The notes below the pieces were generated by a model. The model made no database searches. It was not told the origin of the DNA and was given only the letters and a program-made list of their open reading frames with translations. A program made the translations under genes and the position numbers. A stretch of DNA of 64,000 nucleotides from Sialis fuliginosa (lineage: Eukaryota > Arthropoda > Insecta > Megaloptera > Sialidae): positions 22,019,098 through 22,083,097 of the forward strand of contig OY540812.1 in NCBI GenBank assembly GCA_961205875.1, in the 5' to 3' direction. Of this stretch, positions 12,601-64,000 are shown one piece after another. Within the stretch, counting starts at the first letter, position 1; the number at the start of each line of letters is the position of its first letter.

Positions 12601-15600
12601 TAAATTCTGTGAACAGAATAATGAATTGAAATGTGTATTTATTCGAGTTTCAAAACGAAAAATAATAACACAGTTTTACAAAAATTAAAATAAAATTAAA
12701 ACGTTCTTACCCATAAATTTTTTTATAAAAAAATAAATGTCACAAAATGGGCAAATTTAATAATTGTTTTCAAAATCATATTAAATAAATAAAATTTTAA
12801 TCATTACTCTGTTCATACTCACTTACACTTGTTGACTACTGTTTATTAACAAAAAAATATAAATGAGGCGTTAATTTTGAAAGTGGCCTAAGTCCATTTT
12901 CCACTTTTTTTTAGTTAAATGTAGTAACGTGTAGAATTAGAAGTAATATATCATAAAAAACAATTTTTGATTAAATATATTCAAAGGAAAAATTTTTTTT
13001 CAACACGTTAATTTTCACACTTAATTTAAAGTTAAAAACTTTATTTTGAAAGTGGCCCAAGTCCACTTCAATATTGATAATGTTATTAATTTATCACAAT
13101 GGCTGAAAAAATTAAACCTTTTTACGGAAAATGTTGGGTACAAAAGTTTTAGGATTTAGCAGGGCAAACCTAATGAAGGTAATAATTTTGACCTGGAGTG
13201 GAGGTTTTAATTAATTTTTTTTAAATGGAAACATAGTTATTTTTTTGCAGATTTGTATTTTGCAGAAAATTAGAAATAATTTTTGTCTGAAATTTTTTTA
13301 AAAAAACTTTAATTTTAACGTAATTTTTTTTTTTTACATCAAAAAATTTTTTTTGTAACCAAAATTTTTGAAATTATTATCTTAATGTTTGAGAAAAAAT
13401 GCAGTTTAAAAAAAAAATTTTTTTATAATTTCATAATTTTTTAAATAAAAAAAAATTTATTTTTTAATGTAACAAAATTTAAAAAAATGTTAAAATTAAA
13501 ATTTTTATAAATTTTTTCAGACAAAAGTTGTTTTTTTTTTTCTGCAAAATACGAATTTAAAAAAAAATAGGTTTCGTTTGAAAAAAATTTTCTGACCCCA
13601 AAATGACCTGACCCTCCACTCATGGTCAAAATTGTTACCTCCATTGATTTTGTCCCTCTAAATCCTGAAACTTTTGTACCAAATATTTTCCCTAAAAATG
13701 CATAGTTTTCCCTATACACTTAAAGTAATCTCATAGTTTTCCATTTATTAATAATCTCAAGATTAAAAAATCAACCTGTATACATACTTAGATTTCCTGA
13801 ATTGTATACATTTTTTAAGAGTTATAAAGAAATAATATAAATTAAAGTGAATGTTTTTTTTTTCAATTTGAAGCATTTTATGTTACAACAAATGGACTTG
13901 AGTTCTTTTCAATTTATAACAAATGTAATTGTTAATTTTGAAAGTGGCCTAAGTCCATTTGTGGTAAAAAAACACATATTATTCATTTAATATTTGGGGT
14001 TATTTTAATAGTAATTGTAAATTTAACTCTCTTAGAAACACTTAATCAATGTGGCACATTGATATCTTACACGTATATTTTTAATTTTATTGAAACGTAA
14101 ACCCTTAAATATCTCAGTTTAAACATAAGTGGACTTAGGCCACTTTCAAAATAAACGCCTCAAATATACATTTAGTTATATTTGAAAATTAATACATTCA
14201 GGAAGTTACTAGTGTGCGTAAAATAGTTTTTCTGCTTTTATAGCTCTAATTCCAATAGCATTAATACTTCTAGCAATTCTCGTCGTGCCACTAATATTTA
14301 AAAAATAGGGGTTTGCCGAAAAAAAATTATAGCTCTAAAGAGTTTTTTCCCACATACCCGGCTCATAATGGCTCTAAAGGCCTCTATACACCACCTAATC
14401 TGCAGGGCCGATTTGTCGGGAGGAAGAGTGGGGGTACTGCAGATGGGGTCGCGTATAGGCAAATCGGGCCAACTTTTCGCGGAATAATCGGCCCGATTTG
14501 CCTATACACGACCCAATCTACAGTACCCCCACTCTTCCTCCCGACAAATCGGCCCTGCAGATTGGATGGTGTATAAAGGCCTTTAGGGTTCCGTGTGTCG
14601 ACGAAATTTGCAGGGTCGTGAATAGGCAAATCGGGGCGATTATATACATATACAAAACTCCACTTTCTAGAACAGTACCCATATTACCCCAATCTATCTC
14701 CCTACAAGACCTTTAGTCGTATAACGTATCAATCGAGAAAATTATTAAAATATATTTTTGAAACGCGAAGAAACACAGCAATGATTTCCAAATATATATT
14801 TCATTATTAAAATGATAATTGTATTGCGAGTTTTATTTATTAATACAAAATTGGGTAATTACAGAATTACAAATAACATGTTTATTTTATTTCGGAAACC
14901 ATATTTATAATTTTAAAGTTTAGAACTGTTATATTTTGCACTTATGTTGTAATAATTTAATAATTTTAAAACTTAAGTTTTTCGTCGAAAGTCATATTTA
15001 GAAAAAATTATAGTGATCATAAAACAATGAAAATAATTAGAAAGTATAAAAAAAAAAATTTTAGAACATATCTTAAGATTGTGCACGTTTTGTTTTTTTT
15101 GGTATTTGAACAACCACATAAATACGCATACCTAAATAAATTTTTATACGTTGGAGGTTACAATTTTGTTGCCAAAAATAAAATATTTTTTAGCTGTATA
15201 GATTCTTTAATCAAAATGCTATTTTGTAATGTAAAACACCGATGCATTATATCTACTTTACATTTCTTAATCTCGGATTTACAAAACTATTATATTTATA
15301 AATGTGTCAAAGGTCAATTATGTACATTATTTATTTATAATAAATATGTGTTGGTTAACATATGTGATATTTTGCTTATTTTTAACTAAATACAGTGATT
15401 ATAATAAGTAATTGGAAGAAAATTCACTATGTCGAGAAAATGTATTGAATTGAAAATTGAAAATCACGTTCGTTCGTGCAAATCTCTTAAAAATTCAGCA
15501 GGTATCGATTAAAACGATATTTGGAATATATCAGAGAAGAATGTAAATATTTATACATATTGTATTAAGAGAGGACAAAATATTATAAAGGTGCTGACAA

Positions 15601-18600
15601 AACAGAAACGTGATAGTTTTAAAACAAAATCGTGTTCCTGTTTTTGTCAGTTTAGTTTTAAACAGGCATATGCATATATATGAATTACTTTTTTGCAGAG
15701 TTACACGAAATTTTTATTAATAGAATTTTTTGCTAAATTCTTCAACACATATTAAAATATCTGCCATAAGAACCACGGGAATTTCTTATACGTAATCCTG
15801 ACAGTGAACAGTGTACGTGATTCTTAATTTATTAAAACAAATTTTTGACAAACTAATAAAAGATAAAATAAAATGAATGGGACATAAACTATAGATAATA
15901 TTATTCTCTACATTATGTATCAAATGAATTTTTTTAACGTTATAACCGAAAACGGATTGTTACTCTTGTCAATTTTTGAATTTGCGAATTATTTTTGAAG
16001 TAAGAAAAAATGTTTTAGATAAAAATGTCGATTATGTTATTATCTATAATTTATTCCCCATACATTTATTTCCAATATTTATGATTTAGTCAGAAGGAAT
16101 TTTTTAAAATAATTATTTAGAATCGCCCACACTGTTCACTCTTAGTATTACGTATAAGAAAGTCCCATGGTATCCTGGGCAAACACGCATACTGTTCAAT
16201 CTCTGTAATACGTATAAGAAAAATTCATGACAGTCATGGCAGATATTTCTTTTCTGTTATGAACCATTTGAATTATAATAAAGTTTTTTTTAATTGGGTT
16301 TTTTGAAAAAATGAATAGAACATAAATTATAGATATTAATGTTACCTACAATTTTTAACTTGACCATTTTTCTCTATTTTGCACTGTTTCAAAGTAATTC
16401 GAAAAATTCAAAAATCGACGTAGGTAAACATTCGTATCCGATTGAAAGGCCGTTTTCAAAAATAGGACGTTTTCTTCCCAGACAAAAATTATTCTTAAAT
16501 ATAAAATTTCACCCTAAATGTCAATATACTTTTCAGTCTACGAGAAGGGGGTCCGAATTTTTTTTTTTAAATATCATCGTTTCTGTTTTTGGGTTATCAA
16601 TCTACGTCTGTATACCAATCTTAATCGGTATAAAATTTATATAGACGGACGGGCGGACAGAGCGAAAAGTTTTCTACGGAACCCTAAAAATCCCAAAACT
16701 AAAACTTGCTATTCAAAATAATTTGTCTACAAGTCTGAACGCATTTATTCTTATTACACAACATTTGTGATGAATTTAGTCAGCTATTTCATTTTTTCTA
16801 AATTTTAATGTAAAATGAACCTTAACCTTTACCAATAACATGGTCGTCTAGTTAGTCCCAATTTACCAAGGTTACGAATATATGATAATATCATCGTATG
16901 TATATTCACACATGACTGGTTTGTTTTGATTCGGACTCAGTAATTCAAAGCAGAACTAATAAATTCCACATACTTACGTGAATATATAAATCTCTTATAT
17001 ATTTTTATTAAAACCGTAATAGTAACAAACATGATGAATTTATGATTTCATTAACAATCTCCTACATACCTATATAAAACCGATTATAAAATGTTTGTTT
17101 GTCTTGATCTGAAACGGAAAGATCGAGTGAAAATTTTGAAATCGGAGAACAATTTTTCTTTAAAAAGCAATCGCAAAACTTCTCGTATCTTCGATAATAA
17201 AATAACCATAACAAAGATACACAACGTATTTTATTCATTATTGAATAAAAATCACAATAGCCATGAAAAACTAAAATATGTTTGAGGTAACAATCACTCG
17301 AGTCAAGAAAGCTTTGGAAAAAAGAATGGTTGATGTTTGAAATTTTTATATTTATTAAAATTCGTTGCTTATTTTGTTAATGTATAACAGCGATGCCGGC
17401 TTTTGGGAGGGAGAGTGGGCTACCGCTTGGGGTGCTACTTCAGTAGAGGCGGCGGATGACCACATGGAGAAAAAAAACTTAAAATCAAGAAGAATTTGTG
17501 TTTTCTCTTTAAAAAACAATCACAAAGCTAGAGAATATATCGGAGTAATTTGGTAGCAATAAATATCGAAGATATTAGAAACTTTGTGACTGTTAAGAAA
17601 AAGTTGTTCTCCGATTTCAAAATTTTCACTTGATATTTCCGTTTCAAGTTATTTTTAATGTTTATTCCATTTCTTCAGATCTCATTGTGATATAGTTATG
17701 AAATTTGATAATCGGTTTAATATTAATTACGTGTTATCGATTTCTATTATGAACTAATGATTATTTAGACCAGGAGTGTGTGGGGCCAGTGGGTCCTTTG
17801 ATTTTCATCTAGTATTTTTTCGTTCTTAAATTGTTTCCTATGTTTGGAACTTTTATAAGGTCATATGCCACAAAATACACAGATATGTCGTAAAATCAAC
17901 CGTTTACGAGAAATACGATAGTAAAGATAGTACCTACTACAGAATTAGGCACAAAACTGCCCCCTCTTAAAGGTAACTTTAGTCTCATTTAACCGAATCC
18001 TCTATCTCTTATAGTTTCTAGGATCCTCGTACTGTACACTGTATTTATTTAGACACTCTGTATAACAATGTACATGTATATTTGAAAACTGAATCATTAA
18101 TCTTCTTCGCTTTATAATCTGTGAAACTTCATTATAAAAAAAAAATTAAATTGTGAAGAAACAAATTGAAAACTTAATTAAATTGTATTACTATATATAA
18201 CATATCAAGATAAGAAAAGGTACAATCCGAATTGAGAGTATGCATAATACAAAAACACCTTTTGGAATTTAAGAGATAAAAATAATGCAAATATTATTTT
18301 CCTTTTAAAATATATGTTTGTTTTTAAAACATAATATAATACATTATTAATTATATCATATCAAATGTAATTTAAAATTACTAATATTAAATTAACTATA
18401 TATCTTATCAAAGTATAAAGAATCGATAGATTTTAAAAAAAAATAGAATATACGCGAAAGTTAAAAATATAAATGTGTCAAAAAAGACAGACAAGTGCGA
18501 GTAGGATTCGCGCCCTGAGGGTTCCATACCGTTATATAAAACTTAATTATTGACAATAGTTAGTAGCGTAGACGATGGACCCGATTATACGGCGTCTTTT

Positions 18601-21600
18601 TTATGTAGGCGACTACGTAGACACTGTATGAAAGAAACCGCAAAATCAAATTAGAATTAGAAAATAATGATTTTCGGATTTTTCCTGTTCTTGTCCTACA
18701 ATAAGACCTTCTAGTACCCTATAGGTTTTGATGATCAGTCAGTGAGTCAATTTGTCAGTATCAAATACGCTTTGAAAGGTCGTAGCCTTTTTATTGCATT
18801 GAGATTAGAAACTTGAATTTTTTTGCAGGACTATGAGACTATAGACCTTAGTATTAATTTCAACTTGATACCTCTAGCCGTTTTCGTCAACAAGAAATAA
18901 TAATTGTTGATACATACCTATCATCAAGTAGAGAATGTTAGTGAGAGTGGTTACGGGATTCTATCATATGCGTGCCCAACACGCACTTGACCATTTAGGA
19001 TCGATCCACATTATCGTGCCGGTCAAATATTCAGTATATAGTAAATTCTATATCAGAACGTGACTGGACCGAGACCGGCACGATACCTATAGTGTGAATA
19101 ATTTCATTGTTTATTCTTTATTTATATTTGATTGGAGCGAAACCGGACCGGGACTGGCACGAGTCTGGATTAACCCTTATTTCATTTTGAGGTACGAAAC
19201 CATAAAAAAGATTTAAAAAGCAGAAACTTAATACAAACTGATAGCTTACCCTATACTTACATAATTTCAGATCAGTATTTTTAACCCCCCCCCCCCCCCA
19301 TTAGATAAAATAATTCTTCTATCGGTTTTAATACAGTTTGCGTGAAAATTTCACTGCTTTAAAAATGTTTTCTCCTCAAATAGTTGGGAAACATCGATTT
19401 ACTAAAGTAATACCCTCCCCTTTCCAAGAAGAATTACGTTTTAAATATTCCCCTGAGTTCAAAATAGTTAACATTATTTTTAAGAGTGCAATTTAAATCC
19501 GCCCTTGAGTCTATTGTTTGATTTTCGTAGATTTCTACTTTCGCAAACGTTTTCAAGAACGTAGAGGACCGTCTGTAATTGAATACCGTTATGATTGTGA
19601 TAACAACCTTGCAGATATCAAACGTGGACTGAATTTTAAACACCAAACTATTTGTATAATGTGCAATACCCGTTTTTATCAACGAACTCTACCAAATAAC
19701 ATGTTAAATGAACTGCTAAATATTTTAAAATTGGTTAAATTTACCGGAAAATGGATACTTCATATAAATCATAGATAATAATATTCCCTGCAAGTTTTAT
19801 TAAATTTTTTTTTTCTATTACGTATACGTACTCTTATACAAAAATAATTCAGAAAAATACTAAAATTGGCAATTGACGATTTAGTGATGTTTTTTAAAAA
19901 TAGGGGGTGCACGTCTTTTTTGGGATACATTCATTTTAAGATGTTTCATCGTTTTGGATGTATATACTATATGGGCTGAAAAGTCTTTGTCCTAAAAATG
20001 AAAGACGATTTTTTTAATAAAAAAAAACTATTTTATTCTTCGACATAATCTCCATCTAGTGTAATGCACTTGTTCTAACGGTCCATTAACATTTCGATAC
20101 CGGTCTTATAGTGGTTCGTGTCAAGTCCCTCAAAATAGGCGTTTGTTTCCAACTCTACCTCTTCATTAGAGTAAAATATTTTGCCAGAGAGCCACATTTT
20201 CAATTTCGGAAAAAGGTAGTAGTCGCTGGGGGCCAGGTCAGGAGAATACGGTGGGTGTGGAACCAATTCATAGCGCAATTCCTTCAATTTATCGGTCGTA
20301 ACGTGAGCCTTGTGAGATTGTACATTGTCTTGGTGAAACAGCATTTTTGGGTTTTCGTATGCAAATTTTCATAAAAGATATGGTCAACACATTCCTTTGA
20401 GATGCTTATGGTGTTAGCTAGCTCACTTACTTTCACTGTGCGGTCATTCAACACAATTTCACGAATTTGTCGAATGTTTTCTGGAGTAACTGCCTCATTT
20501 GGGTTTCCTGAACGGGGTTTTGTGAACACAGTTGAAGACCACTGATATAGGACAGTAATAATATTTTTTTAATTCCCTCCTTCAACAATATGTACAGTTA
20601 TAATGTAAAAAAAAAAACATAATAGTATTATGTAATGTTAATTAATACCTACCTACTACTTCATGTCAGTATTATTTCTTACCGAGGTTTAGTTATTTCA
20701 GTTTTGTTCTTCTCCGTTGTATTTGATTCTTTTAATTACGACTAATTAAAAGTTTGAATTAAAACGTCGTCCAATTAGCGTTGTATATTCATATCTAACA
20801 ATCTTCTTGAGCTGCCTCTTTAGCATAATATCTTGACATTTTCTTTGTTTGAAACATGTTCTCTGTTTATTGATGATTATTTTTTTAATCTGCAACATTT
20901 TTTACGGTTTATTAAAGGGATTTGTTTTGTATTCATTTCATAAAAAAACTTTAACTTTTTAGCGTTTTTTGTTTAGATATTAAGTTTTTTTTATAATCTA
21001 TTGATTGTCATATTCATGTTTTTTTGTTTTACATTGCAGTATACTGCGTATCGTATTTTTATGTGATCTGAACGAAATTTTTCTTTACTACTTATTCTTC
21101 TCGTTGGGTTACTCGGGAAATCATAAGGAACACGTTGGTGAAAATTTCATCCAAATCAGTTCGGTACTTCTGGAGATTAACGTTAACAAACAGACAAATA
21201 TACAAAAAATTTCTCTTTTCTTTCTTAATTATATTAGTTTAGATTTTCGTGAAGAGCGCCTTCAATAAAATCAGATTTGCGATTTCCATTTTTAATAAAA
21301 TATTGACGTATATTTTATATTATTCAGTGATAGTAACACATATTATTTATTATTAATATTATATACATATGCACATTTGCATTTTATTCCCTATATAGGA
21401 AGTTAATGTAATCAAACTGCAAGGAAATTATCAAGTATCCATAATTTTTATGATAATTAGTTGCACAATGCAAATTATCTTTTTTTTTTAATAAAATTCC
21501 ATATCTACAGTGCCAAGTTGGCTATGTAATATTTCGGCCAGGGCTGTGGAGTCGGTACAAAAATCAACGGCTCCGACTCTTACTTGTTACTAAAAATTAG

Positions 21601-24600
21601 CACAAGGCATTTGATCGCCATTACGTGAATTATACAGTGATGTAGATATTTTAAAATCCGTTGAGGGGTTGATGAGTTTAAAAATATTTTTTGAAAAATG
21701 TACGTTTTTGAACATAATTTAAAAAATCATTTTAATTTTGGAAATCTATTCTTGTATTATGGTGTGGCGTGTGATAATAGCCTAAACTATACACCACCAC
21801 AATTCGTGTAGAATTTGTTTATTTTATATTACAAATTCAAAGCTACAAAATTCTTCTTTTTTTATGTGAAATCCTATATATTTCTATTTTATAGTATGTA
21901 ACATTCAATACCCTTCAAATTTTGTATTTAATATGTTCTGCGTCTAAAATTATTAATTATCGTGTTATTTCTATTTATTGATTTAAAAAAGATAATTTAT
22001 ATACTTTTGTCCGGTATTATAAAGAAGCTAGCAAATTTGTTAGCTAGCAAGCACTTTCAAATAGGGTATTAATTCTGTACTAATATCTATGGATTAGCTA
22101 TGGAATTTAGAGCAGTGATACTTCAACTAACTGTAACAAAGTTGGCGACATTATTCATTCGTAATATTACCACTGTTTTAATGTAATACCGTTGGTGTTT
22201 ACTTACGATGCGTGCGCGAAAATTTTCAAACATTTCATTAAACTTAAAAGAACTCTCATATACGTTTGAAACCTCATTAATGAAGTGCTTGTAAGCTAGC
22301 AAATTTTGCTAGTTCGTTTATAATACCGGACTTTAATCCTCAAAATACATTCTAGTTAAGACGGAGTCAGTACCTTTTTACCGACTCTGTCTCCGTAGTC
22401 CTATTAGCCAATTATGTTGTGTTTAATATTGTCCAAAGAACGTAGATGATCAATATTTATTGTAATTACATAATACCTACTGTAAAATATGATGCGCCGA
22501 AGTCAGTGCCGGATTAAAAAGTTGAGAGCCCCTGAGCAGTGAACTATGGGGGCTTAATATGTTGATATTTGGACACTAAATAATTACAATTTTCTTTATA
22601 AATATTTAAAGACCTTATTTATTGTAATACATATATTACTGAAAATCCGATATTTGGACACTAAATAATTACAATTTTCTTTATAAATATTTAAAGACCT
22701 TATTTATTGTAATACATATATTACTGAAAATCCGTCATCATAGATTTCCCAGATGTTATGAGTCATAGCAATATGGCGCATAAAGTTTACTTCGTTTAAA
22801 TAGTGGCTAATAATTGTAATATATCATCGACCCTGTAGATTGGGTATAGTGTATAGAGGCCTTGCCTTCTGGGTATTACCGCTTTGTTTTGGTCGTATAT
22901 GAAGAAAAAATACTTACACACAGAAGTCAAGAATATTTCTATTTTTTTCATTCTTTACAAAATGTATTTTGTTATATTATCATTATAAAGTAAACCGAGA
23001 ACTAAAAGATAAAATTGGAATTTCTATTGTTAAGGTAAGCAATATTTTATGATTGCGTGTACCTATGTAAACATAAAATTAATTGCTTAATTTTAATAGA
23101 GTTTCAGTGCTAGACATTAGCGGTGTGTTTGTTTTGGGAGGCCATAGCCTTCGGTTTTGTATTTTATTTAAAAAATTATTCTATTAAAAATATGATTCAT
23201 TTAATTTAATTATTGTTTTGTTGTGAAATTATGCTTGTAAAAAGATTTTAATGAATAATACATTTATGTAGGGTTTTGTCGCGTTCGAAAGGAATATATC
23301 CAGTGGCGGCTACTGTATTTTTAAATTAACATTTTTTTAAAATTTTTAGCTAATATAGTTTCATATAAATAAGTTCTAATCTAAAAAAATATTCGGGCTT
23401 ACCAACCATGCTTATTGGCGAAATTTCAATAGACTGAGTAGGCTATTACCCTTCTAGAGCGTCATATTTTAGGGGGCGGTAAAATTTCAGCGACGACGAA
23501 AAAAACGGTAATATGAGCCGTTTATTTTGAAAGTGGCCTAACTCCATTTTTCAAATTTTTTTTGTCGACTGTACTAACGTGTATAATTAGAAGTAAACTA
23601 TCATAAAAACAATTTTTGGTTAAATATATTCAATGGAAAAAAAATTTTTGAACACATTAGTTTTCACAATTAAGTTAAAAAGTTTATTTTGAAAGTGGCC
23701 TAACTCCACTTAATTATTAATAATGTTGTTTTATTTATCATAATAGCTGGAAAACGAAAGCTTTCTATGGAAAATATTTGGTACAAAAGTTTTAGGATTT
23801 GTCGAGGCAAACCCAATGAAGGTAACAATTTTGACCTTGAGTGGAGATTTTAAGGTCATTTTGGGGTCAGCAAATTATTTTTAAATAGAAACTTAGCTCT
23901 TTTTTTGCAGATTTGTATTTTGAAAAAAAATCGAAATAACTTTTGTTTGAAAAGTTTTAGGAATAATGCAGTTTAAAAAAATAATTTTTTTATAATTTCA
24001 TAAATTTTTAAAGCAAAAAAATTTTTTTTAATGTTACAAAATTTTAAAAAATATGTTAAAATTGAAATTTTTTATAAAACTTTTCAGACAAAAGTTATTT
24101 ATTTTTTTCTGCAAAATACGAATCTTTAAAAAAATAAATAGATTTCCTTTGAAAAAAAAATTCTTGACCCCAAAATGACCTTCAAACCTCCACTCAAGGT
24201 CAAAATTGTAAACTCCATTGATTTTGCCCCTTTAAATCCTGAAACTTTTGTACCAAATATTTTCCCTAAAAATCCATAGTTTTCCAGATATTAAACAATC
24301 TCAGGACTTAAAAATCACCTGTATACATACTTAAATTTCCTGAATTGTATAATTTTTTAAGAGTTATAAAGAAATAATATAAATTAAAATGAGTGTTTTT
24401 TTTTAATTTGAAGCATTTTAACTAACTACAAATGGAGTTAAGTTCTTTTAAATTAATAACAAACGTAATTGTTGATTTTGAAAGTGGCCTAACTCCATTT
24501 GTGGTTAAAAAACACATATTATTCATTTAATAATTGGGGTTATTTTAATAGTAATTATAAATTTAACTCCCTTAGAAACACTTAATCAATGTGGCACATT

Positions 24601-27600
24601 GATATCTTACACGTATATTTTTAATTTTATTGAAACGCAAACTATTTAATATCTCAGTTTAAACATAAATGGAGTTAGGCCACTTTTAAAATCAACGGCT
24701 CATATATGAAAATATTGTAATGATAATAAATACGATAACAGCAAAAATTAGGTGAGAAATTTGAAAATTTGATATTTATCTATTTTTATCTTTTACTAAA
24801 TTTCTATTCCACCGTGAGTATATATGTATGCTAAATAACACATTACTAAATCGATACAAACATCGATTTATAACAAAAATCCCATTTCGGATTTTCTAAT
24901 ATAAGTATTAGTAAAATAAATGAAGTGAACTATAAAATATTGAGTTTAATCAAATGCATTTTGTTTTTAACTGAAAATTAAATATAATCAATATCAAAAT
25001 AATTATCATAAATTGTTTAACAGATTTTTATTATTTTAAATTTAAATGATTAATTAATTAACGAAATGAATAATACTTTTTTAAATTGATTTCTAAATAT
25101 TAAAAAAATCCTATAATTTATTTTTTCCGAGCGCCGCCACTGATCTTATTAATAAAAGGAAAACCCGTGAGTACATCCGTTTAGTTTGTTCAGTGAGAAA
25201 TTAGTGTTTAACCTAATTTCAATAACAATTAGGAATTAGTGTTGTTTGCACTCAAAATCATTTGCTTGTTCTGTTTTATTTATTGATTTATTAATTTAAT
25301 ATCTTATAACTTACATTTTAATTTGATTTATTATAATACATTAAATACCTACTTATAATCAAATATTAAAATTAAAAATAAACGATGATTAAGTTCTAGT
25401 ATTTTATAATATTATTTCACAATATGATATATTGTGTAATTGTTAACATGCATATCGTTTTTAAAAACATAATTATTTTTGTGCTGAAACAATGGGCAAC
25501 CATGAGCGTAGCCAGGATTTTGTTTAGTGGGGGGGGGGCATTTTTTTTAAACAGGTAGTCGGCGCGTCTTGCATAGGAAGGGGGGGGGGGGGTAAGGGTC
25601 TCGAACAAACGGTAGTTAAACTTTTAAACACGTTTTATTAATATTTTTTTAATAAAAAATATTTTCAATGGGCCTCAGATTTTAACCCCCGTGTAACACC
25701 ATATAAACAATAGCCTTTAATAACAACAACAACCCATCCTAATGTTTAAAATTAAAACTATTTCAGCATGAAGTATTTGATTTTAATTGTATGAATGAAT
25801 ATTGCGTAACATTTGAATATGACCCTCAATCCCCCATGTAATACCATGTAGACAATATAGCTGTATCCCCCCTCCCCCCTAAAAGTGTGTATTGTGTATG
25901 CACATACATGGTGGAGGTAGGGGGCAAAAAAACGAATATTTAATAAGGTTTTATATAGATAATAATGACTAACATTAGTAATTTAATGATATGCTTTACA
26001 TTTTTTTATACATCCTCATTATTTATATTAGCAACGAACTGTGCAATTATTTTAGATTTATATTTGTAATAGAACATAATGTATCTACGTTTTATTCATA
26101 CTGAATAGTTGACCGCGAAAAATATTTCAAGAAAAAAAGTTCATATAAACATGTGTTCGGAAATTCTTCTTGGAAGAGCTACTGGTTCCCAAAAATTAAG
26201 CATAAATTTAGTTTTTATTTAATATTTGAAATATAAGAAATTTTATAATCGGTTTAGTATTAAACACATATCAATACTAAATGTATTTATCTTGATCTCA
26301 AACGGAAAAATCGAGTGAAAAATTTGAAATCGGAGAATAATTTTTTTTCTCTTTAAAAAATAATTACAAAGCTTCTCGTATCTTCGATAATAAAACTACT
26401 CATAACAAAGATACAACACATTTTATTCATTATTGAATAAAAATCACAATTGCCATGAAAAACTAAAACATATTTGTTGGTCGAGGCGTCATCAACCAAA
26501 ATTACAACAATCACTCGAGTGCGATATTAATTAAATTCAAGTCAAGTAAGCTTTGGAAAAAAGAATGGTTGATGTTTGAAATTTTTATATTTATTTAAAT
26601 TCGTTGTTTATTTTGTTAATATACATATAACAGCAATGTCGGCTTTAGGGAGGGAGGCTGAGCGACTGCTTGGGCTGCCAATTCAGAAGGGGCGGCGGAC
26701 GGCCACATGGAGAAAAACTTATTGTTAGCTTCAATTCTAGTAAAAAAAATTTGTTTTTAAAAAACGATCACAAAGCTTCTCGTATCTTTGATATGAGGAA
26801 GCAAAATTAATATTTTCGAATAAGTAAGACGAGAATATGTTGGAGCAATTTGGGAGCAATAAATATCGAAGATATGAGAAGCTTTTTGATTCTTAAAAAA
26901 TGTTGTTCTCCAATTTCAAAAATTTTCACTTGATATTTTCGTTTCAAGTCATTTTTAATGTTTATTTCATTTCTTCAGAACTCATTGTGATATAGTTATG
27001 AAATTTGATAATCGGTTTAGCATTAATACGTGTTATTGATTTCCAGTATCAACTAATGATTTTAGACGAAGGGTATATGGGGGCCAGTGGGCTCTTTAAT
27101 TTTTATCTACTTATTTTTTTGTTTTTAAATTTATTCCTATGTTTGGAACTTTTATAAGGTCATATGCCACAAAATACACTTTATATACTTTTTATTACTA
27201 GGTACTATTTATTATTTTTTTAACTCGAAAATGGCGCCTCAAGGGGCTCCAAACAGTTCACGTAGTTGGAACCTTCGGAACCCTAATGACATGCACCTGT
27301 GGATGTCTTGACCGATTTTTTGTAGTTTCATATAATTATTTTGCATGGCCCCTACAAAAGGGGGATGGGGGTGGAGTTGATTGAACAATAGCCAGTGAGC
27401 CCGGAGTTTGATGGGAAGCGCGGTGCATCAAACAACAAGCCTTTTTTAGCTGTAATATGAATTATTAACAATTAACCTTAAGAAAATTATTAAAGGACCC
27501 CACACTTTTCTAATGGAAAGTGGCTTTCGGGCAATTTTTTTGAAACTTTAGTATGTTGTTCCTTGTACTCTCCTGAATAAAAGCCTCCATAGACACGAAG

Positions 27601-37921: not shown

Positions 37922-39018
37922 TATAATAGACCAAGAGCCAGTGGCTTATTTCCATTGTTTATTTCAAAAGTCATGAAAATTTTGGTACTAAATCTTATAT
38001 ACCTACTGAACAACAAAAGTCGATTCTGGCAGCCCTCCGCGGCCGGGTTGTACTGCAGCAAAATTATAAAGAGGGTGAAAAATAATACTTAATTTATTTA
38101 AAGTAAAAGTCATGAAATTTCAGGAGGTTACTTTCGATAATATTTTTTATTCATAAAAATTATTGCCAGAACATTTGCTCCTCACCTAGATGCTGCCAGA
38201 ACGCTGTAAATGTTTATTTTAAACACACTCATTTTTGTTATTTATGTAGGATAGATAGTTTAAAAAGCCAGAATAAAATTCCATCACCAAATGCCTACCA
38301 GAACAAAAAACGTTTCCACATTAGTGCGATACAGTTATATAGCGGCGTGGGGGTTAGAGAGAGAACGTATATGGGGAGCGCGGGAATGACACTCTGGTGA
38401 TAAAATTGGTAAGTATATGGAGAGTAAAAAAAGTTAGATATATAAAATTCAAGAAAAAAATTATTGTAAAAATAAAAATAAAAAACATTTATTTAATGTA
38501 TCAAAAAATACAATTTTTTTATTCATCTTCTTCTTCATCTACTTGATTATCATCCTAATTGACAACATCCTCATCAGATATTGTAATCATTTGAATCCTC
38601 GATTAAATTGATTTGAGGTATTAATATTTCATCATCTGTAAAAATGATTGATAATAATAATTATTATAAATTTTATAAATTTTCTTCTTGAAGTGGGGGT
38701 TTTCTATGGTCAAAATAAAAATATTTTTTTTATCTCAGCAGTGTAAATTATTTAATTTATTTGCGCTTAATTATAAATTTTCGAAAAATATATATTTTTT
38801 CTTCATCAGAACATGGTTATTATTACTTTCATTATTCTACTATAGTTGCAAAAGCAATAGAAAATAAAATAACTATTTGATTTATTCGATAATTCTAATA
38901 TACGGGGAGGGTTGTCAGAATCAACTTTTGTTGTTCAGTAGGTATATAAAATTTTGTACCAAAATTTTCATGACTTGAAATAAACAATGGAAATAAGCCA
39001 CTGGCTCTCCGTCTATAA
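37922..39018. mobile_element. 1.1-kb TIR element next to LRP1
   Basis: Arms of about 120 bp: left includes GAGCCAGTGGCTTATTTCCA and ATACCTACTGAACAACAAAA, right the complements at about 38926-39010. Similarity is roughly nine in ten. The interior is AT-rich with four GCCAGAAC-type phrases (38163-38300) and, on the minus strand, an acidic tail-like string DDNQVDEEEDE before a stop at about 38520, too broken upstream to name. Target duplication not resolved. Confidence 0.65.
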
Positions 39019-57300: not shown

Positions 57301-60300
57301 TACGGTGACTCAATTGTTAAATACACACGCTTTAGATTTTTCTCATCGCAATCGAAGTATTTGTTATGTACATAAAAATATAACTCAAGCTTCAGTGGCT
57401 TGTATGCACATCGACGATTTTTCAAATCGTTGGATATTGCCTCGTCCCACAATATCTCCTGAATTAGATACAATACATCAAATAGTTTACGACTGGATAT
57501 CAGGGAATTGGTATTTTTTAGATGACTCCAAAGAAATAATATTTGTTTGTAATGAAACTTTAACTGTATGTGCAATTATTTTAGAAAAAGAAATAAGTAA
57601 ACCACGAGGTGTCGCTTTAGACCCAACTAAAGGATTGATGTTTTTTACTAAATGGGGCCAAACGGCTGCAATGCTAGAAAGGTGTAATTTAGACGGTACT
57701 GAACGCACAGCACTAGTTAATCAAAAAATAGTCTACCCACACGGCGTGACTGTAGATTTTCCTGTAGAACATGTATATTGGGTTGATACTTACCTAGGAT
57801 TTGTAGAACGAGTTAATTACGATGGCACAAACAGACGCACAATTAAAAAAGGATACGCTGTTCACAATGTTTATGCGGTCACTGTTTTTGAAAATAATTT
57901 GTATGTGTTGTCATGGAAAAACGAAAGCATTGCTCGTGTAAATAAATATCACAATGAAGATTTCACAACGCTTCGTAATGTAACAAAACCTTTTACAATC
58001 CATATTTTCCATCGCCAACGACAACCTGATGTTGCTCATCCATGTAAAAATAATAATGGAAATTGTGAACATATTTGTGTATCTATGTGGAGAAAGAATA
58101 TCGCAGTTGCTCAGTGTGTCTGCAAAGTAGGTTATTTGTTGAAGGATGGGAAATGTGAAGAGATAAAAGCAGATAGTTTTTTGTTGTATGGTAAAGGTAG
58201 TCCTCCGATGATCAAAGCATTAACGATTGATTCACAACCTAATAATGAAACAATTATTGGAATGATAATAAATGACTTGAAGCGGCCGACAGCATTAGAC
58301 TACGATTCTGAAACTAGTTTTGTTTATTTCTCTGACGTCCATAGACATGTTATAGAGCGGCAAATGCTAAACAACTCGAGTCGGGAGGTTGTTGCAAGAG
58401 CTAACACCTGCGAAGGTCTTACGATAGACAGAGTGTGGCGTAATATCTATTGGACAGATGAAGGCATGCAACAAATAAATGTTGCAAGGTTATCTAATGT
58501 GACGATGCGAAAAACATTAATACGAGGGAACATGTCTCATCCAAGAGCCATTGTTGTCGACTCTGAAAAAGGGTACATGTATTGGACCGATTGGGCGACC
58601 CATATAAATCAAAGTGGTAAAATAGAACGTGCCTGGATGGATGGAACTCATCGGGAAATTTTTATTGGTAGTGGTCTTCAGTGGCCAAATGGACTGACTA
58701 TTGATTATGTTGGACGTAAACTTTATTGGTACGTTTAGTATTTTAATACAAAATTTTTGGCAATTGACTTTTGCAATGTTATTTTATAATGGTATTTACA
58801 CTCATAAAAAATAAACTTTTTTAAAATTGAAGTCTAGTTTTCAGACAAAATCTGCTGATGTAGTTCAGAAGTATATAATTTCAGCTTTAACATTCTTTTT
58901 TTAAATTTGTTCTCTAATTTCTTTTTGCACACAGCTATTTGACACAATAGTTAAAAATAATCACTTTTTGCTTGATATTAAAATTTCTGTTTATTATTTT
59001 GCTTGCTTTATAATTTTATAATTATGTGGAAAATAAATTAAAAATCTACAAAAAGCAAAGTATAAATTCATGCCCATTTTTACCATAATTATAGAGCTTT
59101 GAATATTGCTTTCTTTCCTCTAGAAATATTGTGTAATTAAGTCTTTTGATGAGTGTATTTTGATAATCGAAAGTATACATATTTTTACTTCTATCTTACA
59201 GGTGCGATGCATTTTTGGATAAAATAGAACGTATAAGCTTGGACACAACAGATCGTATACCTGAACTAGTGTTTCAGGGACCACAGTTGGATCATTCGTA
59301 CGGTCTAGCTTATTACAACGGGTATCTTTACTGGAGTGAATTTCAAAAAGGCAAACTTCAGTCTTTATCATTAACAACTAACAAAACGACTACAATAACT
59401 GTAGAAAACCCACCATTCTTTGACTTGAAAGTAATAACACGTGACATGCAACATATAAAAACTATTCCATGTAACTGTTCAGAATTATGTCTCGTAACAC
59501 CAGAAGGTCCTAAATGCGGATGCACAGATGGTCGAGAATTAAAACAAGATGGTAGTTGTGGTCCGTCTAGAAAGAAAACACCAAACAGTGGTAGGTGTCA
59601 TGAAGGACAGTTTGAATGTGGTCTTATGGATGATCGAAGAGGAATACAGTGCATCAATGCAGAGCATAAGTGTGATGGGGATGAGGATTGTGAAGATAAA
59701 TCAGATGAAATGAACTGTGGACCTGCGACCTGTAATCCTGAGCAGTTTCGATGTGACGGTGTCAGGTGTATTTCTAAACACTGGGTATTTAAGTTTTATT
59801 TTATTTTTAAAATATAAATTTTTTTTTACACAAGACATAATAAACCTATTATATATCAAGAAATATATATTCTAGGGTAAAAAAATGAATATTTATAGCT
59901 AGTTTGATGTCATCATATCTTTTAAGTTTATATTTTAAACTTTAGAATCAATTCCTTACATTTGAAAGTTTTTATTTTATTTGTATCTTCAGCTGTGCGA
60001 TGATGACCGTGATTGCCATGATGGAACAGATGAAGATCGGGAACGCTGTAAAAGTGTGACATGTGGCAGCCAACAGTTCACTTGCCTCCATTCTGGCCGC
60101 TGCATTCCACAGACGTGGAAGTGTGACGCGGATCCGGATTGTGGACCGGATGACGAAAGCGATGAGAAAGATGGATGCACTGGTCTCCACCCAGAGTGCA
60201 CTGACATGGAATTCACTTGCGCTAACAGTCACTGTGTCCCATTAGAGTATTATTGCGATGGTGATGATGATTGCAGAGATGGTTCGGACGAAAAGGAATG

Positions 60301-63300
60301 CAAACCTTTTTGTGATGTTAATACACAGGTAATGATATTTTTAATTTTATTTAATTTAAATCAATAAAGAGAAGTGCTTATTTTAATGAAAAGCAATTTT
60401 TTCTAGAATGACCCCTTGAATAATTATTCTAGTTATTTAATTTTTGTCTCTCTTTAGATTTATTGCGCAGCTGATGAAATCTGTCTTTCATTATCTGACA
60501 AATGCAATGGCCGTCAGGATTGTTCAGACGGTAGTGACGAATCTAAATGTCCCAGTACATCAGGGACTTCATCTCGTAGGCCTCCAAACCAACACAACGC
60601 TAATCATCACTGTGAAACCCATGAGTTCCAGTGTCACGATGGTATTTGTATCCGTATGCAGTTCCGCTGTGATGGTAAACAAGACTGCATTGACGGTTCG
60701 GATGAGCAGAAGTGTAATACTACAGTGACAGTGTCTTCAGCAACAGCACACAATACTAGTACAAATACAAGTGAATGTGAATATCCATCTAGGTACTGTG
60801 ATGTTAATAAAGTCTGTCTGAGTGTAACACAGCTGTGTGATGGACATCCAGATTGTGAAGATAAAATGGATGAGGGCTGGCGGTGTGATGAAAAGCTTTG
60901 TGATTTTAGTTCAGAATGCTCACACGGTTGTCATAATGCTCCTGAAGGCATGGTCTGCTTGTGTCCGCCCAATTTACACTTGCTACCTGATAGTGTTACT
61001 TGTTCCACCGTCCATCCTTGTGATACTTGGGGTGTCTGTTCCCAAAAGTGTACTCCTCTCAAGACGAGAGCAAAGTGTACATGTGAACCTGGCTATCAGT
61101 TACACGATGATGCTTTTACATGTAAAAGTACTGACGGTACAACACCTCTTGTCGTCTTTTCAAATCGCCATGAATTAAGAGCTGTGGATTTACATACATT
61201 TAGTTTTAAACCACTTGTATCAAGTTTAAAGAATACAATTGCCTTAGATTTTTATTTTGCACCGAATGCTACTATGATATTTTGGACCGATGTGATTGAT
61301 GATAAAATCTATAAAGGCACTCTTATTGGAGGATCTTTATCAAATATAGAAGTAGTCGTACAGACTGGATTATTAACTGCAGAAGGTTTGGCTGTCGATT
61401 GGATAGGTCGCAACTTATATTGGGTCGAAAGTAATTTGGATCAAATCGAAGTTGCTAAACTGAATGGATCGTGGAGACGTACATTAGTTGCAGGTGATAT
61501 GGAATCACCACGAGCTATAGCACTTGATCCCAAAGAGGGTTTATTGTTCTGGACTGATTGGGATGCTGCATCTCCTCGAATAGAAAGGTGTACAATGGCA
61601 GGTCGTAAAAGATTTGTTGTGGTTCAAGTAGACAAGCTCACCGATGGTGCTTGGCCTAACGGTTTAACTTTGGATTATGTTTTACGTCGTATTTACTGGA
61701 TAGATGCTAGATCTGATTCAATACATACAACTAAATATGATGGTACTGATCACCGTGAGGTATTAAAAGGTGATGAGAATTTGTCACATCCTTTTGCAAT
61801 AGCTCTGTATGAAAATTATGTTTACTGGACAGACTGGAGAACTAACAGTGTCATCCGAGCTAACAAATGGAATGGTTCACACGTATCTGTAATTCAGCGT
61901 TCTTTGACACAGCCTTTCGATATTCAGATTCTTCATCCCAGTCGGCAACCTAAAGATGTTGTAAACCCATGTGAAGAAAACAACGGTGGATGTTCTCATC
62001 TCTGTTTGTTGGAAGGTAACGGAACATATGTTTGCGATTGTCCTCATGTGATGAAGTTACAACCAGATAAACGTATCTGTGTAGTAAACGAACGTGTACT
62101 ACTATTCTCCCGTCCAAATGAAATACGAGGAGTTGATTTAGCCCAGCCTTATTACCATACCATACCTACGATCAGTCTTCCTCAAGTTCTGTCTCCGAGT
62201 CAACTTGATTTTGTCGCTCACACTTCGATGCTTTATTGGACAGACCCGGAAGTGAGTGAAGTTAAACGAACAGGCCTTACTAGTGGTCCTACGTATACAG
62301 TAATAGATACAGGTATCGAAGGTCCAACAGGTCTTGCTGTTGACTGGCTGGCAGAAATCCTGTTCATCTCTTCGTCTACTGGAGCTATCATCGCATGTAA
62401 CTTAGCCGGTGAATACCCGACTGTTATTGTTGAAGGAGGAGAAGACCACGGTGCTGTCAGAAGTTTGGCTGTGGATCCTGCAAAGGGTAAATTGTATTGG
62501 ACAAGATCCTACGGAAGCACCCACGTAGTTCCGAAACATTTTGTTGAGTCGTCGTCCATGGATGGAACCGAAGGAGAAATTTTATATGAAGATAAATCTG
62601 ATACTGATGGAGGAGATGGACTTCATAGTAAGTTACAATAAATATTTTGATTTATAATTTAACCACTCAGTAGAACAGGCATAGATAGACTCTTATACAC
62701 GCTTTTGTAATTAATTATTAATATCTGAATTTATATTTGACATCCGAAGTTAATTTAATAATTACTTTCTTTTTCAAATATTATTAATTTTATCCTCTAA
62801 ATACTCTAAAATATTATTTTTTTACTTAGGTAATTTTTCCACTAGTTGATATTAAAACACATTAAGTTTTTGCAGGTTTAACAATGGATATTGAATCTAA
62901 TCGTCTCTATTGGGTTAACACAAAAAATTCGCATGTTGAGTATTACGACTTCAATACCAAACATATTAGACGTGTGATGATATCTGAATCTTCAAAACCT
63001 ACAGCTATAACTATATATGGAGGTCGTTTATTCTATGCAGACCAACGAGATAAAGCCATACACTCGGCTGATAAAACAACAGCTGAATCTGATACCGTAC
63101 TTCGTAATGCTACAGCTGACGTACTGTCTTTACGTATTTACGATCGTTCTGTACAACGTAATGATGGTAATAAAACAATTATTTGTTAAAAATATAAAAA
63201 AAAATTAATGGAAACAAAAAGTTATATTTTTTCTTTACATATTTCATGTTTATAGGTAATATAGGAGCTTGCAGTGACTTTGTTCATGCACCAGTTAATA

Positions 63301-63654
63301 ACGATAAGAACGGTAATATGAACAATAATGGCCACAGTACTGGTAATATCATTAGAAAAAGAGGATGTGCTCATCTTTGTATACCGAAGTCAGACAGAGC
63401 TTATGTTTGCCGTTGTGCTACTGGATATCTGCCTGATCCTAACGATGATAAAAAGTGTATAGGTGTGCCGGAATTAGTACTCTATTCAATCCATTGGGAG
63501 ATTAGAGGAATGCCTTTGAATAAAGTAATTAATCCTCCGGAAGTTATTAGTAATCAATCGGTAGCTAATAATACCAATCAAGCTGAGAATAAGTCTGAAG
63601 TGCTCGGACCAATTTCCAGGGTATCTTTGGCAACTAGTATTGATTTTCATGCAG
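39242..63654 (+). CDS. LRP1: LRP1-like giant LDL-receptor family protein, 5' 11 exons (partial)
   Basis: Joined exons 39242-39380, 54702-54986, 56318-56446, 56514-56627, 56694-56816, 57189-58728, 59202-59784, 59993-60328, 60458-62627, 62876-63166 and 63256-63654 give 6109 nt, about 2036 codons, and the frame continues off the window. Order: signal peptide; three LDLa (56-184); EGF and cbEGF (185-263); propeller 1; EGF (about 545); propeller 2; EGF (about 866); seven LDLa (about 908-1228); two EGF; propeller 3; EGF (about 1588); propeller 4; EGF (about 1909-1972); start of propeller 5. Order and sequence ([35 protein letters not shown]) follow vertebrate LRP1. Family members are endocytic receptors at the plasma membrane, binding lipoproteins and protease complexes. 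Differences from human LRP1: three rather than two leading LDLa, seven rather than eight in cluster II. Confidence 0.95.
39381..41212. other. LRP1 intron 1, first part
   Basis: AT-rich. A probable hAT remnant at about 40503-40730 shows TAGTGGTGGCCAGCAAACCG and, further on, GCGGTGGGCCGGGGCGATC. Nothing else resolved. Confidence 0.4.
41221..41862. mobile_element. 642-bp foldback with 8-bp target duplication
   Basis: Ends TAGGATGTTTTT and AAAAACACCCTA with an exact octamer ATGCATAT on each side (41213-41220 and 41863-41870). The arms are inverted over most of the length, for example AGCTTTGGATCAAAAGTTAA near 41281 and its complement near 41799. ORFs on the two strands encode nearly the same string ([19 protein letters not shown]) because of this symmetry and are not genes. 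Ends and target resemble 6831-7582. Confidence 0.87.
42181..42330. repeat. CT-rich inverted block
   Basis: Several GTTCTCTTTT phrases and an AAAGAGAAC counterpart lie within 110 bases, forming a possible short hairpin. Probably the end of an older miniature element. Confidence 0.4.
42331..43150 (+). repeat. Dispersed repeat family F, copy B
   Basis: Longest copy. From TTGCTTCCTCGCAATATCGA through GTCCGTCCGTCCGTCTG, GAGGACGGTCCCATTTC, TGTAGAGCATTAAATTTTC and TAGCACGAGGAAGCACTGTG to GGCAGATGTTTTT. It contains three tandem 20-bp units (CATTTTGACG at 42851, 42871 and 42891) where other copies have one. Confidence 0.82.
44079..44458. mobile_element. hAT-type miniature element (MITE)
   Basis: CAGTGGCGTATTTAC at the left, GTAAATACGCCTCTG at the right (14 of 15 paired), and exact octamer GGTAAAAG on both sides (44071-44078 and 44459-44466). 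Interior holds repeated GCCGCCCTGGG phrases and the ACTGATGGCC-T run-AGTCACGC module. Confidence 0.92.
44467..46411. other. LRP1 intron 1, mixed remnants
   Basis: A short inverted pair around CGTGTGTACTTC (44870) and GAAGTACACACG (44738). At about 45765-45830 CCCAGAGAGGTACCGCGGAT and AAGACCACTGATCTAG look like the right end of a hAT-type element. At about 45936 GAAATCGAACACTGGACCTC resembles the B-box end of a tRNA-derived SINE in minus orientation, weakly. Confidence 0.35.
46412..47166 (+). repeat. Dispersed repeat family F, copy C
   Basis: Same ends and order as copy B, with a single CATTTTGACG unit (46910) and a short ATATTAATATC expansion near 46595. Non-coding. Confidence 0.82.
47229..47593. 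mobile_element. hAT-type miniature element
   Basis: CAGGACTGTGGAGTCGG and GAGACTCCACAGCCCTG ends, flanked by GCCAAATC and GTCAAATC (7 of 8 equal). Interior repeats CGACTCCGACTC phrases. Same family as 21539-22414. Confidence 0.85.
47602..48507. other. Unassigned intron DNA
   Basis: AT-rich; no element or exon supported. Confidence 0.45.
48508..49023 (+). repeat. Dispersed repeat family F, copy D (internally deleted)
   Basis: Has both family ends (TTCTTCGCCATATCGAAGAT and GGCAGATGTTTTT) but lacks about 250 bases between the TAGAGCATTCAATTTCTTGT block (48891) and the 3' part that resumes near 48935. A GTGCGTGCGTCTGTCTGTCT microsatellite stands where the other copies have (GTCT)n. Confidence 0.8.
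49611..51064. mobile_element. 1.45-kb TIR element, asymmetric arms
   Basis: Left ACACAGAGAGAAAA and AAATCTTAGAAAAATTACTG with TGCTCT face right AGAGCACAGTAATTTTTCTA with AGATTTTTCTCTCCGTGT. The left arm has about 25 extra bases between the two blocks. The 1.3-kb interior is AT-rich with no coding frame. Confidence 0.6.
51065..52060. other. LRP1 intron 1, hAT end fragments
   Basis: TTGACACCACTG at about 51288 and CTACGCCACTG at about 51607 look like right ends of two hAT-type elements; the second follows a C18 run (51573-51590). Left ends were not found. Confidence 0.45.
52061..53743. repeat. Short repeat split by a later foldback
   Basis: The two outer pieces (52061-52123 and 53630-53743) correspond to the uninterrupted copy at 18997-19172: GATCCACACTATTGTACCGG, AAATATTCAGTAT on the left; ATAGTAAATACTG, GAGACCGGCACGATACC, GATTGGAGCGAGACCGG on the right. 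Confidence 0.7.
52124..53629. mobile_element. 1.5-kb near-perfect foldback element
   Basis: Ends TAGTATAGGAGCCAGCTGC and GCAGCTGGCTCCTATACTA. Arms of about 690 bp (52124-52815 and 52938-53629) are close to identical; a 120-base centre holds C-rich DNA and a partial direct copy of the arm (TTTGGGTTAGTAATAAAAT at 52847). Comparison with the empty site at 18997-19172 puts the insertion in CAGTAT/ATAG with a duplication of at most 1-3 bases. No coding capacity. Confidence 0.87.
53744..54701. other. End of LRP1 intron 1
   Basis: GCGGCCCTAG and GCGGCCCGTGGAGCAGTTTG (53930-53970) and GAGCGTCGTTAGTATTTTTT (54020) look like hAT-type remnants. The remainder is AT-rich up to the exon 2 acceptor. Confidence 0.4.
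54702..54986 (+). CDS. LRP1: LRP1 exon 2 (LDLa 1 and 2)
   Basis: Two LDL-receptor class A repeats: C56-C92 with [13 protein letters not shown], and C98-C142 with CDGDPDC followed by an unusually long [13 protein letters not shown] loop instead of the compact acidic motif. GC-rich compared with later exons. Donor GTGAGT. Confidence 0.95.
55096..55628. mobile_element. hAT-type element with GAACCC repeats, in LRP1 intron 2
   Basis: Ends CAGGGACTTGAACC and GGTTCAAGTCCGTG; flanks CTTGTAAG (55088-55095) and CTTCTAAG (55629-55636) agree at 7 of 8. Just inside each end are runs of GAACCTGAACCCGAACC-type hexamers, again near 55490 and 55560. Non-coding, old. Confidence 0.8.
55965..56200 (+). repeat. 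Family F fragment, strongly diverged
   Basis: GCTTCTTCACCATGTAGGAT, CATGAACCATTAAACCGATT, TTAGTTGGGTCTGGTTAAT and ATATCTCAAGAATG keep the order of family F, but the ends and middle are lost. Older than copies A-D. Confidence 0.6.
56318..56446 (+). CDS. LRP1: LRP1 exon 3 (LDLa 3)
   Basis: One LDLa repeat, residues 148-184, with [13 protein letters not shown] calcium cage. Phase 1 in and out, as for shuffled modules. Human LRP1 has only two LDLa in this position. Confidence 0.95.
56514..56627 (+). CDS. LRP1: LRP1 exon 4 (EGF-like)
   Basis: Six-cysteine EGF-like module [20 protein letters not shown]...C, residues 185-222. Phase 1-1 exon. Confidence 0.93.
56694..56816 (+). CDS. LRP1: LRP1 exon 5 (calcium-binding EGF)
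   Basis: [20 protein letters not shown] followed by [11 protein letters not shown]: the D-x-D-E start and aromatic SYKC mark a calcium-binding EGF. Phase 1-1 exon, residues 223-263. Confidence 0.95.
57189..58728 (+). CDS. LRP1: LRP1 exon 6 (propeller 1, EGF, most of propeller 2)
   Basis: 1540-nt exon. Propeller 1 repeats include NPKG-like [20 protein letters not shown] and [20 protein letters not shown]; an EGF begins [14 protein letters not shown]; propeller 2 has [20 protein letters not shown] and [17 protein letters not shown]. Ends within a Trp codon. Acceptor ACAG, donor GTACGT. Confidence 0.95.
59202..59784 (+). CDS. LRP1: LRP1 exon 7 (end of propeller 2, EGF, LDLa 4-5)
   Basis: Completes propeller 2 ([20 protein letters not shown]), then EGF CNCSELC..., LDLa CHEGQFEC...[16 protein letters not shown] with an insertion LMDDRRGIQ, and the first half of the next LDLa, ending KHW before GTATTT. 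Confidence 0.95.
59993..60328 (+). CDS. LRP1: LRP1 exon 8 (LDLa 5-7)
   Basis: Continues [14 protein letters not shown], then two whole LDLa repeats (CGSQQFTC... and CTDMEFTC...[16 protein letters not shown]) and the first residues of another (CDVNTQ). Phase 0 at both ends. Confidence 0.95.
60458..62627 (+). CDS. LRP1: LRP1 exon 9 (LDLa 8-10, EGFs, propeller 3, EGF, propeller 4)
   Basis: 2170-nt exon, the largest here. Three LDLa finish the cluster; two EGF-like modules; propeller 3 with [20 protein letters not shown] and [35 protein letters not shown]; propeller 4 with [21 protein letters not shown] Ser/Thr/Asn-rich linker (about 60719-60773) lies between the last two LDLa. Donor GTAAGT. Confidence 0.96.
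62876..63166 (+). CDS. LRP1: LRP1 exon 10 (end of propeller 4)
   Basis: [20 protein letters not shown] and [19 protein letters not shown] complete propeller 4; ends with [16 protein letters not shown]. Acceptor GCAG, donor GTAATA, phase 1 out. Confidence 0.92.
63256..63654 (+). CDS. LRP1: LRP1 exon 11 (EGF, start of propeller 5)
   Basis: EGF whose first and second cysteines are separated by an Asn-rich insertion of about 30 residues ([16 protein letters not shown]), then [20 protein letters not shown]. Propeller 5 opens [19 protein letters not shown] with another Asn-rich insert before [11 protein letters not shown]. Donor GTATGA. The following exon is outside the window. Confidence 0.92.
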
Positions 63655-64000
63655 GTATGAATGAATTAAATATATTTTATTACAAAAATTTAAAATAATA
63701 TAAATTTAGGTTTGTAATGAAATTTTAATTCTATTTTACACCTAACAAACAAATTAGGGATCAAAATATTACCTACTAGAAAAAAAAAACAATATTCAAA
63801 ACTCTATGCAAAAATGATTTTAAAATTTAAAATCTGTTTTCCAAATTTTATTATTATTTATTTTATTGTAAATCGATATACAATTCATTCCCTAGAGTTA
63901 TAAAGCAAGTAAAAAGTGAAAGTACTTGAAGTACTTTACTTGTTAAAATTAACTATTAAATTCAAGTATTATGAAAAAACACATAAATATCAACCAGAAA
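63655..64000. other. LRP1 intron 11, to window end
   Basis: AT-rich intron; no acceptor or exon recognised before the edge. Confidence 0.6.

Follow-up and report, generated by a model that had tools for sequence, protein, structure and literature searches.

Two foldback elements within a 64,000-nucleotide stretch of Sialis fuliginosa DNA (the window; contig OY540812.1 of assembly GCA_961205875.1, forward-strand positions 22,019,098 to 22,083,097, part of a 392-Mb genome in 20 contigs) belong to two families of non-autonomous DNA transposons that are told apart by one base, G or C, repeated at five internal motif sites and in the octamers at both ends. Copies with graded mixtures of the two states are found mainly between the families on phylogenetic trees. 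Taken as a whole, the data are probably best explained by two Sola2-like sister families whose sites are contacted by a transposase and whose recognition motif was switched in steps. That the genome would preserve this switch as a step-by-step fossil record, followed by a parallel repair of one site (site 4) in both families, is a more tentative proposition, which we hold to be possible but somewhat short of probable. The initial annotation of the window had proposed that the motif copies evolve in concert, either by conversion between arms or under pressure from a binding protein; the latter is the better supported and is favoured here over one-step concerted conversion, whereas arm conversion is unsupported as the main cause in view of the mostly ordered mixed copies and of a T retained at site 4.

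Both elements are characterized by imperfect inverted ends of 35 bp, which match at 94% in inverted orientation on self-alignment, and by 4-bp target duplications. Element 1 (12865–14161, plus strand, 1297 bp, G type) is flanked by AAAT at 12861–12864 and 14162–14165, and element 2 (23515–24701, plus strand, 1187 bp, C type) by ATAT at 23511–23514 and 24702–24705. The long inverted repeat, i.e. the 'foldback' part, is a central imperfect palindrome of about 550–600 bp (13108–13709 with arms about 72% alike in element 1, and 23741–24293 with arms about 78% alike in element 2, by self-alignment), the ends being only 35 bp. No unspliced open reading frame of at least 100 amino acids overlaps either element, and neither has coding capacity for a transposase. 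Each carries four full sites of a 14-mer motif and one half-site, embedded in units of ~27–30 bp that are nearly identical from site to site on self-alignment; a 22-mer search allowing up to three mismatches gave eight matches in the window, as against none in 100 shuffles. In element 1, the sites are GTGGCCTAAGTCCA at 12883–12896 (site 1, plus), 13944–13957 (site 4, plus) and 14130–14143 (site 5, minus), GTGGCCCAAGTCCA with one mismatch at 13052–13065 (site 2, plus), and the half-site GAACTCAAGTCCA at 13893–13905 (site 3, minus), and the octamer GAGGCGTT stands at 12865–12872 (plus) and 14154–14161 (minus). In element 2, GTGGCCTAACTCCA occupies 23533–23546 (site 1, plus), 23695–23708 (site 2, plus), 24484–24497 (site 4, plus) and 24670–24683 (site 5, minus), the half-site GAACTTAACTCCA lies at 24433–24445 (site 3, minus), and the octamer GAGCCGTT is found at 23515–23522 (plus) and 24694–24701 (minus). 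The five sites of element 1 all have AAGTCCA and those of element 2 all have AACTCCA, and the octamer change from GAGGCGTT to GAGCCGTT is present on both ends, exactly as the initial annotation had described. Its site coordinates were right within a few bases except for 13933, where the true start is 13944, and four of its five 14-mers are full sites; the third (about 13893 and 24431) shares only the AASTCCA part with them, yet switches along with them.

The family is present in many dispersed copies with common, precise ends: the exact 18-mer GAAAGTGGCCTAASTCCA gave 680 matches in the 392-Mb genome (345 forward and 335 reverse; 0 for the reversed control), and intact ends, defined as 32-mers in which any base was allowed at both variable positions, numbered 310. 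The octamer and its adjacent site are discordant in only 6 of these 310 ends, four pairing GAGG with AACTCCA and two pairing GAGC with AAGTCCA; among the 100 intact ends listed, 98 were concordant, one was discordant and one had GAGA. On a single contig (C1), the 100 sites listed fell into 53 clusters, 28 of them with at least two exact sites, and not one of the 28 was mixed, compared with 17.9 on average and never fewer than 8 in 10,000 label shuffles. The half-site and both octamers obey the same rule in 40 aligned copies, with G/C exceptions in L004, L061 and L062. In a larger alignment, 57 of the 66 copies with at least two called positions were pure; the nine mixed copies include artefact calls as well as copies fetched for being mixed or for resembling mixed ones, and counts of mixed copies in the fetched set thus give no frequency (the 'mixed' calls of L057 and L097, for example, are alignment artefacts or mutated ends). 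Linkage of the G/C state within copies, which had been put forward as a check, is hence borne out by the end and cluster counts and proves more regular than could be seen from the window alone, and mixed copies, which had been named as the evidence that would tell against it, do exist but are mainly old, L004 excepted. As each site changes only a few times on the trees, concordance within a copy mostly reflects plain descent, and few events are informative; independent evidence comes from the seven position-wise changes between the families.

Consensuses were built from 19 G-type and 20 C-type copies (L061 was placed in neither group), and they differ at 107 of 1283 compared columns. Individual copies differ from their own consensus by 1.3–6.6% (G) and 1.3–3.7% (C), excluding the misaligned L042 (18.8%). 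Only 12 of the differences between consensuses are G/C transversions, and 7 of the 12 are the five sites and the two octamers. Given 313 G/C columns, the hypergeometric probability that all seven named positions fall among the 12 is about 1.5e-11, a post hoc figure, and the chance that four 22-base units with one change each would show the same index and the same base is about 3.5e-6. A different G-to-C change within the motif, taken as a control, was seen once in otherwise intact ends genome-wide. These figures bear on an alternative, namely that two subfamilies merely inherited their differences and that the coincidence of positions is due to chance or mutational bias. Such inheritance agrees with the 1 to 4 changes per site counted on the full and right-end trees (shuffle means 16 to 21), but leaves unexplained why more than half of the G/C transversions strike these positions, why the five sites change at the same motif index and in the same direction, and why the control transversion elsewhere in the motif is so rare; we regard it as very unlikely.

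A full tree (50 taxa, 1133 columns, all site units taken out) unites the C copies with support 99 and the young G copies with support 100, the older copies lying between these two clades, and a second full tree of 65 taxa recovers the same two groups. A right-end tree (63 taxa, 279 columns, site columns taken out) was also built; like the full trees, it is unrooted. The copies were chosen in several ways: L001–L008 are those that match element 1 best at the DNA level, L039–L058 the first 20 clusters on C1, and L065–L088 were mostly picked for intact ends, whereas L060–L064 were picked because they are mixed, L089–L104 for likeness to L061 or L062, L105–L117 by the state of site 4 and L118 by its octamer. 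L042, which is badly aligned, and L046 were counted in the consensuses and left out of the full trees; L039, L040, L049, L054, L060 and L104 are also absent from the latter, and copies with large inserts entered them as one aligned piece each (L045r, L047l and L056m). Single-position calls are unreliable for L057 (site 2), L097 and L100 (5′ octamer) and L117 (site 5 and 3′ octamer), owing to alignment artefacts or to missing or mutated ends.

The mixed copies, which are mainly old and lie between the two families on the trees, mostly fall into a graded series when site 4 is written as a three-letter code (the base 10 upstream, T or C at motif position 6, and the variable base). On the right-end tree, stage (a) has octamer G, site 4 ATG, site 5 G and half-site 3 G. 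Stage (b) has octamer C and site 4 ATC with site 5 still G (L106, L109 and L111; the half-site is G in L109 and L111 and unread in L106), and L060 likewise combines octamer C, site 4 C and site 5 G. Stage (c) has octamer C, site 4 ATC, site 5 C and half-site G (L108 and L110), together with L107, in which site 5 has T and the half-site is unread; in stage (d) the half-site is C and site 4 retains its T (L104, L113, L114 and L116), and stage (e) is the young C family with site 4 GCC. L109, which has both ends and AAAT duplications, carries C in its two octamers and at site 4, and G at the remaining sites (1, 2, 3 and 5), with the caveats that its octamers have other changes, that site 1 has a 2-base insertion and that site 2 has lost one base. 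In L108, half-site 3 is the only G left. Read without a root from G to C, the path would begin with the end octamers and site 4, proceed to sites 1, 2 and 5 (sites 1 and 2 being bracketed by one copy on each side, L109 and L108), and reach half-site 3 last. Refinements would then follow, in which site 4 goes from T to C and the base 10 upstream becomes G at sites 4 and 5 and in most copies of site 1.

The 80 exact T-type copies of site 4 comprise 35 of the form A..T..G, 8 A..T..C, 29 G..T..C, 2 T..T..C and 2 T..T..G, with one each of C..T..G, G..T..G, G..T..T and A..T..A. The switched C is thus combined with the old T (GGCTTAA) in 39 of the 80, and GGCCTAA is the rule in young C copies. In L100 and L113, site 4 has kept G, with C at the other sites that could be read. 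In the G family, site 4 reads GGCTTAA in older copies and GGCCTAA in young ones, a split with support 99 on the full tree; if the root lies between the families, the T-to-C change would be parallel in both. A further octamer group, GAGCCGGT, has two G and two C among its four exact ends, and L118, one of the G ends, has a single readable site, which is G.

As an alternative, gene conversion or template switching among the five sites of one element would have homogenised them. Short exchanges are conceivable, given the near identity of the ~27–30-bp units, and L090 and L064 resemble products of exchange, either between copies or between sites; the C family has moreover gained the upstream G at sites 4 and 5 and in most copies of site 1. 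However, conversion would replace both variable positions of site 4, where 39 copies switched while retaining a T that is mostly absent from the other sites. The sequences flanking the units also remain different from site to site, and L060, L106, L109 and L111 all combine a switched octamer and site 4 with an unswitched site 5. We therefore consider homogenisation by conversion unlikely. Selection for binding predicts stepwise substitutions at separate sites that converge on one motif, and we infer that selection rather than drift drove the switch. In this stepwise model, the 14-mer sites and end octamers would be putative contacts for a transposase (or the DNA-binding domain thereof) that an autonomous partner provides in trans, and the G and C families would each fit a different binding specificity. 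The switch would have proceeded by successive point substitutions, site by site, in lineages that were still transposing, and copies frozen at several stages would persist in the genome.

Because the two end octamers changed as a pair, which suggests recognition of the ends, the binding protein is likely to be the transposase. A host factor, for example a repressor, could in principle impose the same pressure, since sites lie both inside the elements and at their ends and the data point to no particular protein; it is nonetheless an unlikely candidate, as the switching of both end octamers fits end recognition, and escape from a repressor would be expected to favour loss of sites over the exact re-matching of all of them. 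An autonomous partner was sought in the longer copies L045, L047 and L059 and in nine other loci with truncated or incomplete copies, where reading frames were listed and judged by eye, and no transposase was recognised; its absence among the longer copies counts against the stepwise transposase model, in which the role of the transposase is inferred. In L045, other DNA of about 2.1 kb interrupts the element near position 235, and four frames of this copy gave only weak Pfam matches under the family cut-offs. In L047, about 2.35 kb is inserted towards the right end (L047:2991–5344), with flanking alignments that overlap by 8 bp; six frames gave no Pfam match at E up to 1, and the insert contains broken reading frames and one cysteine-rich stretch. 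In L059, most of the right part is replaced by about 2.1 kb of DNA that has inverted and direct repeats of its own, the repeats of the insertion (L059:95–2276) lying near CGCCCAAGAGTGCGTCAACGCAACATTA. Frames in L058 resemble reverse transcriptase by eye.

Several other observations weigh against the stepwise model, the first group of which concerns the order. L004, L062 and L104b break it, each combining octamer G with C at site 1 and G at the remaining full sites, and L064 is similar; L063 has octamer G with C at sites 1 and 2, and in L061 the octamer and sites 2 and 5 are C whereas site 1 is G. L004 is moreover a mixed copy inside the young G clade. Site 2 of L090 has C-family flanks and looks like an exchange between copies, and the order-breaking copies together suggest some copy-to-copy exchange or extra mutation. 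The placement of sites 1 and 2 in the order depends on L109 and L108 alone. On the right-end tree, the young C clade contains two T-type site 4 copies (L046 and L117), and the G clade has T- and C-type site 4 copies intermingled, so that a single T-to-C step at site 4 is not clean there. That tree is weak in its deep nodes and uneven in support. Because the trees are unrooted, the G-to-C direction can only be suggested, and with the oldest copies (L111, L061 and L101) being mixed or G, a mixed ancestor is possible. Finally, the seven-position statistics are post hoc, the positions having been picked after the data were seen.

Assignment to a superfamily was based on the target duplications. 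Both ends were readable in 36 of the 58 stretches tried, and an exact 4-bp duplication was found in 33 of the 36: ATAT in 20, AAAT in 6, ATTT in 5, and AATT and ATGT in one each, all but ATGT being of the form AWWT. The portions consulted of a paper on Fanzor proteins give AWWT, specifically ATAT, AAAT and ATTT, for Sola2 (PMC3627910), and we therefore call the families Sola2-like. The class is suggested by the AT-rich AWWT duplications and inverted ends, no Sola2 transposase having been found here; Repbase membership in Sola2, as far as its rule is given in the part consulted of PMC4455052, is decided by an end alignment over positions 1–11. Sola2 copies in which most of the transposase region is deleted are on record (PMC3627910), whereas the five internal sites and the central palindrome are not described in the sections of that account seen. 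Duplications of 4 bp set aside P and MULE elements, for which at least 7 bp are needed according to the available text of PMC5199201 (and of PMC10741241 for MULE), as well as Academ, with 3-bp duplications (PMC5199201).

Galileo, a foldback-like member of the P superfamily, similarly has several sites inside the element, these being sites for the THAP domain of its transposase within the ends, and its subfamilies differ in THAP binding, the domain of one subfamily binding the ends of another weakly (K ends) or not at all (N ends) (excerpts of PMC3688188). By analogy, it may serve as a precedent for subfamily-specific end recognition. In contrast to the families described here, with 35-bp inverted ends and a central palindrome as the foldback part, Galileo has 1.2-kb inverted ends with its sites in long direct repeats (PMC3688188). 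The families also resemble insect miniature inverted-repeat transposable elements (MITEs) in being non-autonomous, AT-rich and high in copy number, and the iMITEdb survey, in the part consulted, places insect MITE families in Sola1, Sola2 and Sola3 among others (PMC5199201); at about 1.2–1.3 kb, however, they exceed the 800-bp cut-off of that survey. A literature text search with pieces of the motif returned one paper only, on a bacterial oxygenase, and the titles and abstract openings consulted include none on this transposon family or on a stepwise site switch.

A transposase and the end sequences that it recognises have to coevolve, and we know of few cases in which intermediate steps of such a change are visible. 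It is the preserved intermediates that make the present family of interest: with hundreds of copies of two families and older mixed copies, much of the order of steps can be read from the genome. If the stepwise model is correct, the sites of greatest importance to the bound complex would be revealed by the order in which they were replaced, and two partner proteins are predicted, one preferring AAGTCCA and the other AACTCCA.

Minor variants of the motif were also observed. In L042 (L042:1493–1811), a C-type copy, the three left sites have GTGACC, GTGACC and ATGACC in place of GTGGCC, possibly a further motif state, and GTGACC recurs in a few other C copies at site 5 or at sites 1 and 2. The motif with an unusual downstream base gave seven matches, five of them in fetched family copies (L042, L068, L086, L087 and L108). 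Three C-type loci (L044:1533, L045:636 and 5168, and L050:3679) also have, outside the element, a motif-like 18-mer, MAAAGTAGCCTATGTCCT, which is probably an unrelated repeat. Within the window, 37941–39001 was considered as a third relative and rejected, as its motif-like sequences (GTGGCTTATTTCCA) are the two arms of one palindrome with three motif mismatches, within chance expectation; the region is a separate foldback-like element with inverted ends AGAGCCAGTGGCTTATTTCCA. An 85-bp unit is present as two tandem copies with 100% matches at 22564–22734, and the right end of the window (57305–63698) contains frames of an LDL-receptor-related (LRP2-like) protein with Ldl_recept_a, Ldl_recept_b and EGF-type domains.

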